A stretch of 40,450 nucleotides of DNA. It comes from Deltaproteobacteria bacterium. Its GTDB lineage: Bacteria > Myxococcota_A > UBA9160 > SZUA-336. Below the pieces are notes generated by a model. That model was not told the DNA's origin, made no database searches, and was given only the letters and a program-made list of their open reading frames with translations. The stretch spans positions 1 to 40,450 of the forward strand of contig VGRW01000027.1 of the NCBI GenBank assembly GCA_016875225.1, in the 5' to 3' direction. Below, piece after piece: positions 7,746 to 12,504 of this stretch. The translations under genes were made by a program, and so were the position numbers. Position 1 is the stretch's first letter, and every line of letters starts with the position of its first letter.

Positions 7746-8312
7746 TCAGGCGCGCGAAGCGCGCTCGGCGACCTCTCGGAACCAGCTCGGGCTCGGCGTC
7801 GGGTCCTTCGCGATCGCGACGTGCGCGATGCCGCTCGGCGCCGCGAGGAATCCGCGCGCGAGCTCTGCGCCCAGCCCGACACCGACGAACGTCACGCGCG
7901 ACGCGTCGAGCTCCGGATCCGCCGCGACGAGCGCGAGCACCGCGGCGAGATCTGCGGCGACCTGTTGCTCGAGCTCCGGCCGGAGCCGCGCGGCGAGCGG
8001 GGTACGCGCGTCCAGCGCGAGCGCGCTCAGCTTGTCGCTCCTTCGCGCGCCGCAGAGCGGCAGGTCGAAGCTGATCAGCGCCGCCGTCGCGCTGCACGCC
8101 AGTGCCGCGCTCTCGGCGAGCGCGGAGCTCGCGCATCCATCGGGTCCGGCCAGCCGGATCACCGGGTTCGGGCCGGGGTGCGCGGGTCGGATCACGTAGC
8201 CGTGCACGCGGTCGCCACGCGAGAGCAGACTCCAATGGGTCTTCGCGCCCTCGCGCCTCGTCGCAAGCCCCGGGACGCCCGCGTTCGGATCCTGCGCAGC
8301 GACGCGGCGCAT
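7746..8312 (-). CDS. Alpha/beta-hydrolase-like protein lacking the nucleophile serine
   Basis: This 188-residue protein resembles the core of small alpha/beta hydrolases: a strand PNPVIRLAGPDG, a second strand AALISFDLPLCGAR, and a nucleophile-elbow segment SRVTFVGVGLGAELARG. The elbow normally reads GxSxG. Here it is G-V-G-L-G, with glycine (residue 146 from this start) where the serine should be, and the protein is shorter than active relatives. Catalysis is therefore doubtful, and a structural or binding role is more likely. The ATG at 8312 forms a TGATG junction with the preceding gene, implying translational coupling; an ATG 11 codons upstream is possible. It is the third gene of the ParA operon. 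The fold assignment is moderately sure and the function unknown. Confidence 0.6.
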   Translation of the reverse strand: MRRVAAQDPNAGVPGLATRREGAKTHWSLLSRGDRVHGYVIRPAHPGPNPVIRLAGPDGCASSALAESAALACSATAALISFDLPLCGARRSDKLSALALDARTPLAARLRPELEQQVAADLAAVLALVAADPELDASRVTFVGVGLGAELARGFLAAPSGIAHVAIAKDPTPSPSWFREVAERASRA

Positions 8313-9049
8313 CAGGCCGCGAGCCGCTGGCTGAGTCGCTGGCACAGCGCGCGAAGACTCCGACCCGTCGCGCTCTCGTCCTCGAGCGCGTGCAGCGATT
8401 CGCCGCGCAGCAGGGAGCGATAGCTCTGCTCGTCGCGCGCGAGCTCGCCGAGCAGCTCGATTCCGACGCCGTACTGGCGCCGTGCGGCCGAGGAGAGCCG
8501 CGCGATCAGGTCGGCGGCCGCGACCGGGGAGTCGGATCCGACCACCAGCGCCAGCACGCGGCGGCCGGCGAGCGCCGGCGCGAGCTCGCGAAGCAGGCCC
8601 AGCGCCCGGCCCAGGCCCCAGGCGGCGAGCTCGACCGGGAGCAGCACGCCGTCGATTCCGTCCGCGGCGATCCGTCCGAGCATCGCGCCGATTCGCGCCG
8701 GGCGCTCGACCGCGATCGCGGGCACATCGTCCGAAATCGCGGCCAGCGCCACGGCCGGATCCGCGCAGACCTCCCAGCTTGCGCAGCGAACGCGGGGGAC
8801 CAGGGGCGAGGCAGGGAACGAGCTGATCACGCGAGCCGGCCGGCCCGCGGCGCCCATTCCACCGGCGAGCTCGAGCGCGAGCGCGCAGGAGAGCGGCCGC
8901 TCCGGGTCCGCCGGCAGGCAGTAGCGGGGCGCGCGCGAGGGCTGCGCCAGCGGCGGCGTCGCTCGCGCTCGCGCGGCCTCGCGGGCCTCCCGCTGCTCCT
9001 CCTCGGAGATGAAGTAGTGGAGAACGTCTCCGAGGTTCCTGCGCGCCAA
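8312..9049 (-). CDS. ParA/MinD-like protein without a P-loop (putative pseudo-ATPase)
   Basis: This is a 245-residue protein. After an N-terminal helix (NLGDVLHYFISEEE) it follows the order of a ParA/MinD fold. Residues 44-75 (PADPERPLSCALALELAGGMGAAG) align with the P-loop and first helix, but the KGGxGKTT motif is gone. A middle segment DGVLLPVELAAWGLGRALGLLREL and strand RVLALVVG follow. The end, IELLGELARDEQSYRSLLRGESLHAL, resembles the MinD/ParA 'LG-IP-D------G-P' tail. I infer a non-ATP-binding paralogue that may bind the active ParA encoded 14 bases upstream. The TTG start at 9049 is chosen because the homology-like region starts there and no ATG is near. It ends in a TGATG overlap with the next gene. 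Confidence 0.6.
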   Translation of the reverse strand: MARRNLGDVLHYFISEEEQREAREAARARATPPLAQPSRAPRYCLPADPERPLSCALALELAGGMGAAGRPARVISSFPASPLVPRVRCASWEVCADPAVALAAISDDVPAIAVERPARIGAMLGRIAADGIDGVLLPVELAAWGLGRALGLLRELAPALAGRRVLALVVGSDSPVAAADLIARLSSAARRQYGVGIELLGELARDEQSYRSLLRGESLHALEDESATGRSLRALCQRLSQRLAA

Positions 9050-9063
9050 GGCCGGCTCTCGTG

Positions 9064-10161
9064 CTAGCTGATGATGAGCACCGAGTTTACACCGCCAGCC
9101 GGACCCTCGACGCGTCGCGGGTTGCTCGGATCCGGCTGCCACTCGCCGTCGACGAAGTAGCGGTACTGGTACACGCCCGGCCCCAGCCGTACGACCTTCT
9201 CCCAGGTGCCGTTCGGACCCAGCCGAGTCTCGACGCCCTGGTCGGGAATCCAGTTGTTGAAGTCGCCGGCGAGCTGGACCTCGTTCACGTTGGGGTTCTT
9301 GAACGTGAAGACCACGCCCTTGGCCGCCGCGGAGGCCAGCTCGATCGGATCGGGCTTTGCGGCCGCGGGCTTCGCGGGCTGCTGCTCCTCTTCGCGGTCG
9401 TAGAGGACCTCGAGCGCGAGCGACATGTAGTCGACGAATCCGTAGGAGCGGCGGTCGAGCTTCGCGATCGGAATGCCGCGCTGCGCCGCCTCGCGCAGCC
9501 GCACGTTGGAACGGATCACCGTGTCGAAGACCAGATCCTTGTAGGTCTCGCGGATCTCGGCGAGCGCGCGCTTCGCGAAGCGCGTTCGCCCGTCGAAGAG
9601 CGTCGGCAGGATGCGGATCTTGAGCGAGTGTCCGATCCGATCCTCGAGCAATCCGATCGTCTCGAGCAGCTTGCCCACGCCGTGCATCGAGTAGTAGCTG
9701 GTCTCGAGCGGGATGATCACCTCCTGTGCCGCGCGAAGCGCGTTGAAGGTCAGGATCCCGACGTTGGGCGGACAGTCGATCAGCACGAAGTCGTAGCGCT
9801 TCTCGAGCTTTGCGATCGCCGCGGCCAGCCGCTCGGTGCGCCCCCGCGCTCCTTCCGCGCCGAGCTTCTGCTCGAGCGCGGAGAGGATCACCCCGGAGGG
9901 TGCGACGTCGAGGTTCTGAGAGGCGTTGGTGATCACCTCGTCGAGCTTCGCGCCCGCGCCGTCCGGCTCCGAGAGCACTTCGTACAGGTTCTCGTCGACC
10001 TCTTCGGGGTCGACGCCGAGGCCGAGCGTCGCGTGCGCTTGCGGGTCCATGTCGATCACGAGAACCGAATGACCTTCGGCCGCGAGACACCCGGCGAGAC
10101 TCACCACGCTGGTGGTCTTGCCGCAGCCACCCTTCTGGTTCATCACCGCGATGCAGCGCAT
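9064..10161 (-). CDS. ParA-family ATPase fused to a C-terminal glycogen-binding (AMPK-beta/CBM48-type) domain
   Basis: This 365-residue protein has two domains. Residues 1-255 are a complete ParA ATPase: MRCIAVMNQKGGCGKTT (Lys10, Lys15), VLVIDMDPQAHATLG, and FVLIDCPPNVGILTFNAL. They end with FAKRALAEIRETY, FDTVIRSNVRLREA and RGIPIAK, as in chromosome- or cargo-positioning ParAs. A Pro/Ala linker leads to residues about 280-365, an early-set domain: VVFTFKNPNVNEVQLAGDFN, then W, PGVYQYRYFVDGEW, and GGVNSVLII. The two Trp and the Asn used by AMPK-beta to bind glycogen are kept, and the usual Lys is Arg. This suggests an ATPase that positions a carbohydrate-bearing cargo on the nucleoid. No parB or parS is next to it. 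The ATG at 10161 has a good AGGAGG site upstream. Confidence 0.9.
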   Translation of the reverse strand: MRCIAVMNQKGGCGKTTSVVSLAGCLAAEGHSVLVIDMDPQAHATLGLGVDPEEVDENLYEVLSEPDGAGAKLDEVITNASQNLDVAPSGVILSALEQKLGAEGARGRTERLAAAIAKLEKRYDFVLIDCPPNVGILTFNALRAAQEVIIPLETSYYSMHGVGKLLETIGLLEDRIGHSLKIRILPTLFDGRTRFAKRALAEIRETYKDLVFDTVIRSNVRLREAAQRGIPIAKLDRRSYGFVDYMSLALEVLYDREEEQQPAKPAAAKPDPIELASAAAKGVVFTFKNPNVNEVQLAGDFNNWIPDQGVETRLGPNGTWEKVVRLGPGVYQYRYFVDGEWQPDPSNPRRVEGPAGGVNSVLIIS

Positions 10162-10364: not shown

Positions 10365-11324
10365 ATGGCCAACTCCGAACAGGCGCGCCCGGCGCGAATC
10401 GGCGTGCTCGACCTGGGCTCGAACACCGTGCTTCTGCTCGTGGTCGACGCGAGCGGCCGCGTGATCCGCGACGTGGCGCGCATCACGCGTCTCGGACAAG
10501 GCGTCTTCGCCAGCTCCTCGCTCGCGCCCGATGCGGTCGCGCGCACGCGCGCGGCGATCTCGGAGCTCGCGAGCCTGGCGCGCGCGGACGGGGTCGATCG
10601 CCTGGTCGCGGTGGGCACCGAGGCGCTGCGCCGCGCGCGCGACGGAGCCGACTTCCTCGCGCGGCTGGTGAGCGAGGGGTGGATCGACGCCGCGCGGCTG
10701 CTCTCGGGCGAGGAGGAAGCCGAGCTCGCGATCGAGGCGACACGGCGCAGCGTCGGCGCTCACGCGGCGGCGCTTGCAGTGATCGATGTCGGCGGTGGTA
10801 GCACCGAGATCGCCTGGCGCGCGCGCGCCGACGCGCCGATCGCAGCGCTCTCGCTGCCGCTGGGAAGCGTCCGGCTCTCCGAGGAGCTGCTGCCGCGGCA
10901 TCCGGTTCCCGACGCGGATCTCGCGCGGGTCCGCGCTCGGGTCCGGAGCGCGACGCAGAGGCTTGCGCTGGCGCTGCCGAACGGATTGCCGTCCGGCTGC
11001 GCGGTGGTCGCGGTCGCGGGCACCGCGACCACGCTCGCCGCGCTCGAGCTCGCACTCGAAACCTGGGACGAGTCTCGGGTCGAGGGAATGGAGCTCGGCA
11101 CCGGGACGCTCGCGGCGTGGATCGAGCGCCTGGCACGGCTCGGTGTCGCGGAGCGAGCGCGGCTGCCGGGGCTCGATCCCGGACGCGCGGACGTGATCGT
11201 CGCCGGGCTCGTCGTGCTCGAAGGGGTGCTCGACCGGCTCGGCGCGAGCCGCTTCACCGTCTCGGGTCGCGGCGTGCGGCACGGCGTGGCGCTCCGCGCG
11301 CTCGCTGGCGAGAGGGTCATTTGA
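10365..11324 (+). CDS. Ppx/GppA-family exopolyphosphatase / guanosine pentaphosphatase-like protein
   Basis: This is a 319-residue, single-module Ppx/GppA protein of the ASKHA fold. Visible motifs are GVLDLGSNTVLLLVVD (phosphate 1), VAVGTEALRRARD, LSGEEEAELAI, VIDVGGGSTEI (phosphate 2) and the C-terminal RADVIVAGLVVLEGVL. Family enzymes hydrolyse polyphosphate or pppGpp. This short form lacks the C-terminal HD-like domain of E. coli Ppx/GppA, so substrate preference is open. The ATG has an AGGAG about eight bases upstream. It opens a long same-strand gene run; the next gene starts 10 bases after its stop. Confidence 0.9.
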   Translation: MANSEQARPARIGVLDLGSNTVLLLVVDASGRVIRDVARITRLGQGVFASSSLAPDAVARTRAAISELASLARADGVDRLVAVGTEALRRARDGADFLARLVSEGWIDAARLLSGEEEAELAIEATRRSVGAHAAALAVIDVGGGSTEIAWRARADAPIAALSLPLGSVRLSEELLPRHPVPDADLARVRARVRSATQRLALALPNGLPSGCAVVAVAGTATTLAALELALETWDESRVEGMELGTGTLAAWIERLARLGVAERARLPGLDPGRADVIVAGLVVLEGVLDRLGASRFTVSGRGVRHGVALRALAGERVI

Positions 11325-11334
11325 TAACGTCGGA

Positions 11335-12504
11335 GTGCCGGTGAAACAGACAGTTCTGGTCGTCGTCGGTCCGGACGGGCCGCGGCCCTTCATGCGCGGG
11401 ATTCTGGTGCAGTCGTTGGTCTCGCGCGGCGTGCCATTCGATGTCGCGCTGGAGACCGCGACGGCGATTCGCGACCGCGTTGCCGCCAAGCGGCAGGTGC
11501 TGGTCGGCGAGCTCTCGAGGCTCGTCGACGAGCTCCTCGACGACCGCTACGACCTCGATTCGCCGCCCATCCTCGCGAGCGCCGAGCCGCCGCGCGTGCT
11601 CGAAGAGACCGGCTCCGGCAGCCCCTTCTCGAAGGGAATCCTGGCCGTCTCGCTGATGGGCGCGGGTCTCGAGCCGGACGAAGCGCACGACGCGGCGCGC
11701 GAGATCGAGGCGCGACTCCTGCGCCAGGGTCTGCCGCACATCGACCGCACGGAGCTGCGCGACCTGGTCGCCGAGACGCTCGAGCGCACCCACGGCGAAG
11801 GGCCGGCCAGCCGGTATCGCATCTGGCGCGAGGCTCGCGACGACGGCAAGCCCAGCCTGGTGCTGCTCGGCGGAGCCACCGGCTCGGGCAAGACCTCGAT
11901 CGCGATCGAGGTCGCGCGGCGGCTCGAGATCCCGCGCGTGATCGGCACCGACTCGATCCGCCAGATCATGCGGCTGATGTTCTCTCCCGACCTGATGCCG
12001 GAGATCCACTCCTCGACCTTCGACGCGCACCTGCGGCTCGCGCGCGCGGCCACGCCGGCCGCCGAGCCGGTCGTGGTGGGCTTCCGCGAGCAGGCGCAGA
12101 AGATCGCCGTCGGCGTGCACGCGCTCTTCGACCGGGCCGTCGAGGAGAACACCAGCATGCTGATCGAGGGCGCGAACCTGGTTCCGGGAATGCTCGACCT
12201 CGAGCGCTATCGCGATCGCGCGCACGTCTCGTTCATCATGACCGGAACGCTCGACCGCGAGGCGTACCGAAGCCGGTTCTCGACCCGCTCCGCCAAGGCG
12301 CGCGGCCGCTCGGCCGATCGCTACCTGGAGCACTTCGACGACATCCTGACGATCCAGAACTACCTTCTGGCCGAAGCGGAGCGCCACGCGCTTCCGATCG
12401 TCGACAACGTGCACTTCGATACCGCCGTGGTGTCGGTGATCCGCTCGGTGATCGCGACGCTGCCGCCGGCACGAGCGAGGGGTCAGGAGGGGGAGGCGTG
12501 CTAG
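11335..12504 (+). CDS. 2-phosphoglycerate kinase-like protein with N-terminal ATP-cone-like region
   Basis: This is a 389-residue protein. Residues 1-150 contain two ATP-cone-like repeats: RPFMRGILVQSLVSRGV, then the parallel SPFSKGILAVSLMGAGL. The C-terminal half is a P-loop kinase with GGATGSGKTS at about 178-187, then GTDSIRQIMR, a MLIEGANLVPG segment, and IVDNVHFDTAV near the end. This order matches archaeal 2-phosphoglycerate kinase (cyclic 2,3-bisphosphoglycerate synthesis) and its bacterial homologues, whose real substrate is mostly untested. The GTG at 11335 (or at 11341) is the only reasonable start. The stop overlaps the start of the M48 protease gene by seven bases, indicating one operon. 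Confidence 0.82.
   Translation: MPVKQTVLVVVGPDGPRPFMRGILVQSLVSRGVPFDVALETATAIRDRVAAKRQVLVGELSRLVDELLDDRYDLDSPPILASAEPPRVLEETGSGSPFSKGILAVSLMGAGLEPDEAHDAAREIEARLLRQGLPHIDRTELRDLVAETLERTHGEGPASRYRIWREARDDGKPSLVLLGGATGSGKTSIAIEVARRLEIPRVIGTDSIRQIMRLMFSPDLMPEIHSSTFDAHLRLARAATPAAEPVVVGFREQAQKIAVGVHALFDRAVEENTSMLIEGANLVPGMLDLERYRDRAHVSFIMTGTLDREAYRSRFSTRSAKARGRSADRYLEHFDDILTIQNYLLAEAERHALPIVDNVHFDTAVVSVIRSVIATLPPARARGQEGEAC

Follow-up and report, generated by a model that had tools for sequence, protein, structure and literature searches.

A class-wide ParA-CBM48 fusion ATPase and its likely activator, a FleN-like pseudo-ATPase with a ParB-like N-terminal tail

Cells use ParA/MinD ATPases to position chromosomes, carboxysomes, flagella and chemotaxis arrays. 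The locus described here raises the question of what such an ATPase might position, or otherwise control, when its own polypeptide chain ends in a domain of the glycogen-binding AMPK-beta/CBM48 type. The gene lies in a 40,450-nucleotide stretch of a Deltaproteobacteria bacterium genome (GCA_016875225.1, contig VGRW01000027.1, positions 1-40,450; hereafter the window), where a sequence-only reading had taken it for a ParA joined to a carbohydrate module and, by analogy with the carboxysome-positioning ATPase McdA, had proposed that it might spread or segregate glycogen granules or a glucan-coated body. The features at issue are as follows.

9064..10161, minus strand: ParA-CBM48 fusion gene, 365 aa, ATG start
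9403..10161, minus strand: ParA/Soj-type ATPase domain, residues 1-253 (Pfam, alignment, Foldseek)
Within the ParA domain, minus strand: deviant Walker A K10 and K15; D39; Walker B D129; DNA-binding R192 and R221 (alignment)
9316..9402, minus strand: linker, residues 254-282 (pLDDT and alignment), disordered at 261-279 in the model
9076..9315, minus strand: AMPK1_CBM/CBM48-type domain, residues 283-362 (Pfam, PDB match, alignment, AlphaFold2)
8312..9049, minus strand: proposed ParA-activator (partner) gene, 245 aa, TTG start, 14 bp past the ParA stop codon; FleN/FlhG-type fold
9008..9049, minus strand: partner N-terminal motif MARRNLGDVLHYFI, proposed ParA-activating peptide; most conserved 12-residue window, in 38/38 partners
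7746..8345, minus strand: third gene of the run, alpha/beta-hydrolase-like, homolog of the relatives' run hydrolase (hhalign E=3.9e-22); exact start and membership of the system uncertain

The two halves of the fused protein are assigned by several independent comparisons. In Pfam, AAA_31 matches residues 1-182 (E=1e-51), with CbiA/ParA matching as well, and residues 283-362 correspond to AMPK1_CBM PF16561 (7.5e-11; 42.5 bits vs. a cut-off of 26.8), the score for CBM_48 being barely above its own cut-off (23.0 vs. 22.4). Sequence matches in the PDB pair residues 2-253 with ParA/Soj (2.6e-45) and residues 274-362 with the AMPK beta-1 glycogen-binding domain 1z0n (1e-8). The AlphaFold2 model (mean pLDDT 88) features a ParA fold that Foldseek matches to Soj (TMt 0.93), a linker disordered at 261-279 and, at the C-terminus, a domain rich in beta structure (block pLDDT 79-94). 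Chance or an assembly effect can be set aside, since independent assemblies contain full-length orthologs at 49-87% identity and both AAA_31 and PF16561 (the latter at E<=0.001) are matched by 43/43 aligned orthologs. The fusion proposed at first sight is thus borne out by Pfam, PDB sequence matches and structure modelling alike; a literature search on ParA with CBM48, or ParA with glycogen granules, returned nothing relevant, in agreement with the earlier remark that no protein of such architecture has been characterised, and ParA-CBM48 with its pseudo-ATPase partner appears undescribed in the literature searched.

The fusion extends across a whole class, with further relatives in distant phyla. 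In a phylum-wide draw the fusion is present in 52 of 60 genomes of the window genome's class and in none of the 224 others sampled in the phylum; among 40 relatives, 31 carry it at full length or nearly so and 2 as partial copies, one of them at a contig end. Of the best 80 loci in GTDB genomes, most bear the label Myxococcota or Deltaproteobacteria; the labels of the remoter ones (42-49% identity) are Rokubacteria, Acidobacteria, Nitrospirae, Omnitrophota and Auribacter. In a tree built on the ParA domain alone, a single branch (support 97/94) divides the 77 fused forms from the 18 plain ParAs, where the plain ParAs of distant phyla are three PDB entries only and the loci are best matches to the fused form. 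ParA-CBM48 is a real ortholog group, and its sequences make one origin of the fusion likely rather than proven, given that sparse sampling of plain ParAs and the choice of loci by their match to the fusion. Several relatives also encode a further ParA-like group (L111-L116; P-loops NEKGGSGKT or NEKGGSCKT) that stands apart from both other groups in the tree. A plasmid or phage origin was considered and rejected, as the fused form turned up in none of the plasmid and viral records searched; anti-phage defence was likewise rejected, PADLOC having given only a short, weak match at Walker A.

Within the ParA half, the residues for ATP hydrolysis and DNA binding are intact as read from the alignment. 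The deviant Walker A motif KGGxGKT and the Walker A' and Walker B aspartates (K10, K15, D39 and D129) are kept in 43/43 orthologs, as is R192, and position 221 is Arg or Lys in 42/43. The DNA-binding arginines of Caulobacter crescentus ParA are R195 and R224 (PMC7229837), and the 29-residue spacing between R192 and R221 is the same as theirs. Part of the loci were collected with an NQKGGC search pattern, so that the P-loop is biased for those loci; because the pattern partly fixes it, Cys13 of Walker A was not used as evidence despite its look of a signature.

The adjoining gene suggests how the ATPase might be regulated. The window partner protein gives no match in Pfam or NCBIfam and none to a ParB domain, but the profile of a 38-member partner alignment (A2) matches FleN/FlhG in the PDB (1.4e-21), and a structure model of the partner (mean pLDDT 90) is matched by Foldseek to FleN (3.3e-10). 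The P-loop is missing from the window partner and the Myxococcota rows of the alignment and present in a distant homolog (L099, GGNGAPGKST). It is the extreme N-terminus that forms the partner's most conserved 12-residue window, with the consensus (R/K)-x-L-x-(D/E)-(V/I)-x-(H/D)-x-(F/L) and a mean entropy of about 1.05 bits, vs. 2.0 for the body and 2.6 for the linker. This pattern is found near residue 1 in 38/38 partners and in 1 of 1,024 other neighbouring ORFs, that one being a partner gene that had clustered elsewhere. ParA/MinD ATPases are usually activated by basic peptides at the N-terminus of their partners (PMC10241942, PMC13170346, PMC12462528), and in ParB an N-terminal motif with a central Arg/Lys binds and activates ParA (PMC12462528). 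The window genome's own ParB begins MATRKALGRGLSALIP; the short motif of the window partner reads ARRNLGDV, not LGRGL, and in other lineages the tail takes the form LGRGLE(D/E)(V/I)S on two unrelated bodies, namely, in Rokubacteria and a single Acidobacteria MAG, as PLGRGLEDVSxLFLS on another body (A5), and as RLGRGLEEIS on a MinD-like body at two loci (L086/L087). By its sequence, the partner tail resembles the ParA-activating peptide of ParB.

In 30 of the 33 fusion-bearing genomes the partner gene lies next to that of the fused ParA, and 7 genomes have neither. The partner was not detected in G019, G034 and G035, although ParA-CBM48 is present there (truncated in one), nor near ParA-CBM48 at the Nitrospirota loci L088 and L090. 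At the Omnitrophota locus L096 the second gene matched the partner body so weakly that homology was rejected, although its N-terminus, KKRTLADHAHYYLSGE, resembles the motif. We consider the partner a likely dedicated activator for ParA-CBM48.

The predicted contact surface hints at how such a pair could be kept apart from the chromosomal system. In Myxococcus xanthus ParA, residues Y81, E82, D110 and E117 surround the ParB Arg. Mapped by alignment only, Y81 and E82 correspond to Y/F60 and E/D61 in 43/43 ParA-CBM48 proteins, and the residues aligned with D110 and E117 are never acidic, being hydrophobic at the first and mostly Lys/Arg at the second. The partner in turn has Asp or Glu in 38/38 sequences where ParB has Ala. 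These substitutions are consistent with a separate pair without cross-talk, and a charge swap of this kind could insulate it from chromosomal ParAB.

In most of the class the module is embedded in a longer run: a MerR-type gene, then the ParA module, followed by genes for a small third protein, an ECF sigma factor, an alpha/beta hydrolase and a DsbA-like protein. A codirectional ECF sigma gene follows at 55/81 loci and a MerR-type gene precedes at 43/81. The small third protein (L067:2763-3323 and relatives, alignment A4) has no significant match in Pfam and no convincing one among solved PDB structures; it adjoins the partner, occurs in 19 of 40 relatives, every one with the fused ParA, and is homologous to the Rokubacteria body that carries the LGRGLE tail (hhalign E=4.3e-11), a Rosetta-stone link. 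The third gene at L096 was tried as a further homolog of this protein and rejected, the match not being significant. The window's family retains ParA-CBM48, partner and hydrolase, with the MerR, ECF and third-protein genes absent beside ParA; since both ParA-CBM48 and partner are kept there while other run genes drop out, the two appear to be the core of the system.

Several genes around the module deserve mention in their own right. In the example at L034:12650-13303 and at 54 other loci, the ECF sigma gene has the same direction as the ParA module, and no adjacent anti-sigma gene was recognised; in Auribacter (L098:9148-9780) an ECF sigma gene lies directly upstream of ParA-CBM48. The plus strand of the window carries at 10365-11324 a Ppx/GppA-type exopolyphosphatase gene, which immediately adjoins ParA-CBM48 in divergent orientation in no family but that of the window (5 loci), and at 11335-12504 a gene for a 2-phosphoglycerate kinase-like protein that includes an ATP-cone domain, homologs of which are divergent near the ParA module in 59/81 loci. 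At L099:4494-7004, about 3 kb upstream of ParA-CBM48, a GH13 gene with its own AMPK-type CBM is the only alpha-glucan enzyme noticed near the module.

What, then, might the C-terminal domain hold? W304, R334, W341 and N359 align with W100, K126, W133 and N150 of AMPK beta; in AMPK beta-1 the sugar is contacted by W100, K126, W133, L146 and T148, and mutating any of these reduces glycogen binding (PMC2642990). The two Trp and the Asn pointed out by the sequence-only reading are indeed kept, W304 and W341 in 43/43 orthologs and N359 as Asn in 30/43 and Asp in 7/43, and position 334, the K126 equivalent, is Arg or Lys in 42/43 (Arg in the window protein). The proposed role of ParA-CBM48 in the spreading or segregation of glycogen granules or bodies coated with glucan, its CBM48 domain holding the granule, draws on these residues, on the full GT5 glycogen synthase of several distant hosts (strong in 7/12) and on the other CBM48 enzymes of some Rokubacteria. 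However, of the five AMPK-beta sugar contacts only the two Trp are kept outright, the L146 and T148 positions being variable across the 43 aligned orthologs, and the genes adjoining ParA-CBM48 do not encode glucan enzymes. From the window genome (97.8% complete) GT5 glycogen synthase, branching enzyme, phosphorylase and GH57 are all missing, as is any other CBM48 protein, and its single GH13 resembles alpha-glucosidase/phosphotrehalase-type (alpha-glucosidase/trehalase) enzymes, all below curated cut-offs. Of the 33 relatives with the fusion gene, 24 likewise show no GT5, no phosphorylase, no second CBM48 protein and no strong match to GH57 (the hosts are nearly all metagenome-assembled genomes, with gene absences judged at 58-99% completeness), and two relatives, G004 and G011, present the reverse mismatch of alpha-glucan genes with the fused ParA absent. 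The distant hosts are mixed, with Rokubacteria GT5 matches weak only. The missing enzymes here and these mixed hosts rule out glycogen as the general cargo, and granule positioning in the window organism is rejected on the missing enzymes and the lack of correlation among the 40 relatives. Granule segregation as the function of ParA-CBM48 strikes us as improbable, and glycogen as cargo or ligand in the window organism as more improbable still. The earlier reading is thus supported in part, gaining strength in its comparison with ParA-type positioning by McdA and finding no support here in its glycogen part. The two contacts that are not conserved and the absence of alpha-glucan metabolism from most hosts also speak for a CBM48-like domain without sugar binding, solely a protein-interaction module for its own ParA dimer, the partner or the cargo. 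The Trp pair and the Arg/Lys, invariant across several phyla, point the other way, a weak argument as the residues are also common in the fold, and we would give this reading a respectable chance that still falls well short of even. It concerns the role of the CBM48 domain alone and is compatible with a ParA-plus-activator system. The domain has only slightly less than an even prospect of binding some carbohydrate in vivo; its ligand might be a different glycan, a small oligosaccharide or else a protein.

Were an oligosaccharide sensed by CBM48, the ParA and FleN-like pair might act as a signalling or transcription switch that controls the run's ECF sigma factor or MerR-type regulator, as FleN controls FleQ. 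The ECF and MerR-type neighbours counted above and the ECF sigma gene directly upstream in Auribacter are in line with such a switch, as are the partner's nearest solved relatives, FleN, some of them in FleQ complexes, and the AMPK precedent, where the enzyme is inhibited allosterically when the domain binds sugar (PMC2642990); the FleN-like body beside an ECF sigma gene in relatives could denote transcriptional control instead of positioning. Yet ParA-CBM48 and partner persist in the window's family, where these regulatory genes and the third-protein gene are absent beside ParA, and DNA-binding arginines would be needless for a purely soluble switch; we deem the switch reading unlikely. An ordinary chromosome or plasmid ParA with an incidental extra domain would suit the Soj-like ATPase domain, but a canonical parA-parB pair is found elsewhere in the genome (G000:C16), no ParB gene is adjacent, the fused forms make up a separate clade, no plasmid record reaches 80% coverage of the query and viral contigs match the ParA part only; this reading is hardly credible.

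By its anatomy, ParA-CBM48 with its partner resembles ParABS or McdAB and is not placed as a member of either. It shares with ParABS (Soj/Spo0J) the ATPase fold and residues and an LGRGL-like, putatively activating N-terminal peptide on the partner, whereas the partner is FleN-like and not ParB, CBM48 is fused to the ATPase and the canonical ParAB pair is encoded elsewhere. With McdAB it has in common a ParA-type ATPase adjoining a partner with a basic residue in its N-terminal peptide; unlike in that system, the ParA domain is nearer Soj/ParA than McdA (158 vs. 56 bits), the partner is a folded FleN-like protein and the ATPase bears a sugar-type domain. The partner body has the fold of the FlhG/FleN MinD-like ATPases, from which it differs by the missing P-loop in Myxococcota, the ParB-like tail and an operon without flagellar genes. 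The CBM48 domain, finally, belongs to the Pfam family of the AMPK beta glycogen-binding domain and keeps both Trp and the basic site residue, but it is fused to ParA, has lost the L146/T148 contacts and occurs in hosts mostly without alpha-glucan storage enzymes. The likeness to McdA-type positioning that the first reading had drawn is strengthened by the kept DNA-binding arginines and the likely dedicated activator directly downstream.

Our preferred explanation is a chromosomal ParA/MinD-type spatial-regulation module with its own activator, separate from chromosome segregation, a reading we hold with moderate confidence. We are more confident that it comprises a ParA and a dedicated activator, and lean only slightly toward nucleoid-based positioning over a switch alone. 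In the proposed cycle, ParA-CBM48 would dimerise with ATP and then bind the nucleoid via its conserved Arg surface, the partner's N-terminal peptide would activate it, and the partner body, together with the small third protein in most relatives, would connect the cycle to a cargo or regulator, with CBM48 as an in-cis docking or sensing arm for a non-glycogen glycan, an oligosaccharide or a protein. Sequence comparison and modelling establish the fusion, the intact ATPase and DNA-binding residues, the adjacency, co-occurrence and fold of the partner, its P-loop loss and its motif conservation; peptide activation, nucleoid binding and the role of CBM48 are what we infer. The activator argument is built on a short motif, which counts against this explanation. 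A bolder and rather doubtful version is metabolite-gated positioning, in which a glycan-armed ParA/MinD ATPase and an activator derived from a dead MinD/FlhG, with its ParB-like tail, would let a non-glycogen glycan or the cell's sugar state control the nucleoid-based placement of a cell body.

Each new ParA/MinD partner pair points to a new cargo, and here a class-wide system combines an unusual domain on the ATPase with a pseudo-ATPase as the proposed activator. The pseudo-ATPase partner with its ParB-like tail goes beyond what the sequence-only reading had seen and is the most testable result of this work. The system could also reveal whether a ParA cycle is open to control by a sugar-binding module, in the way that AMPK is.
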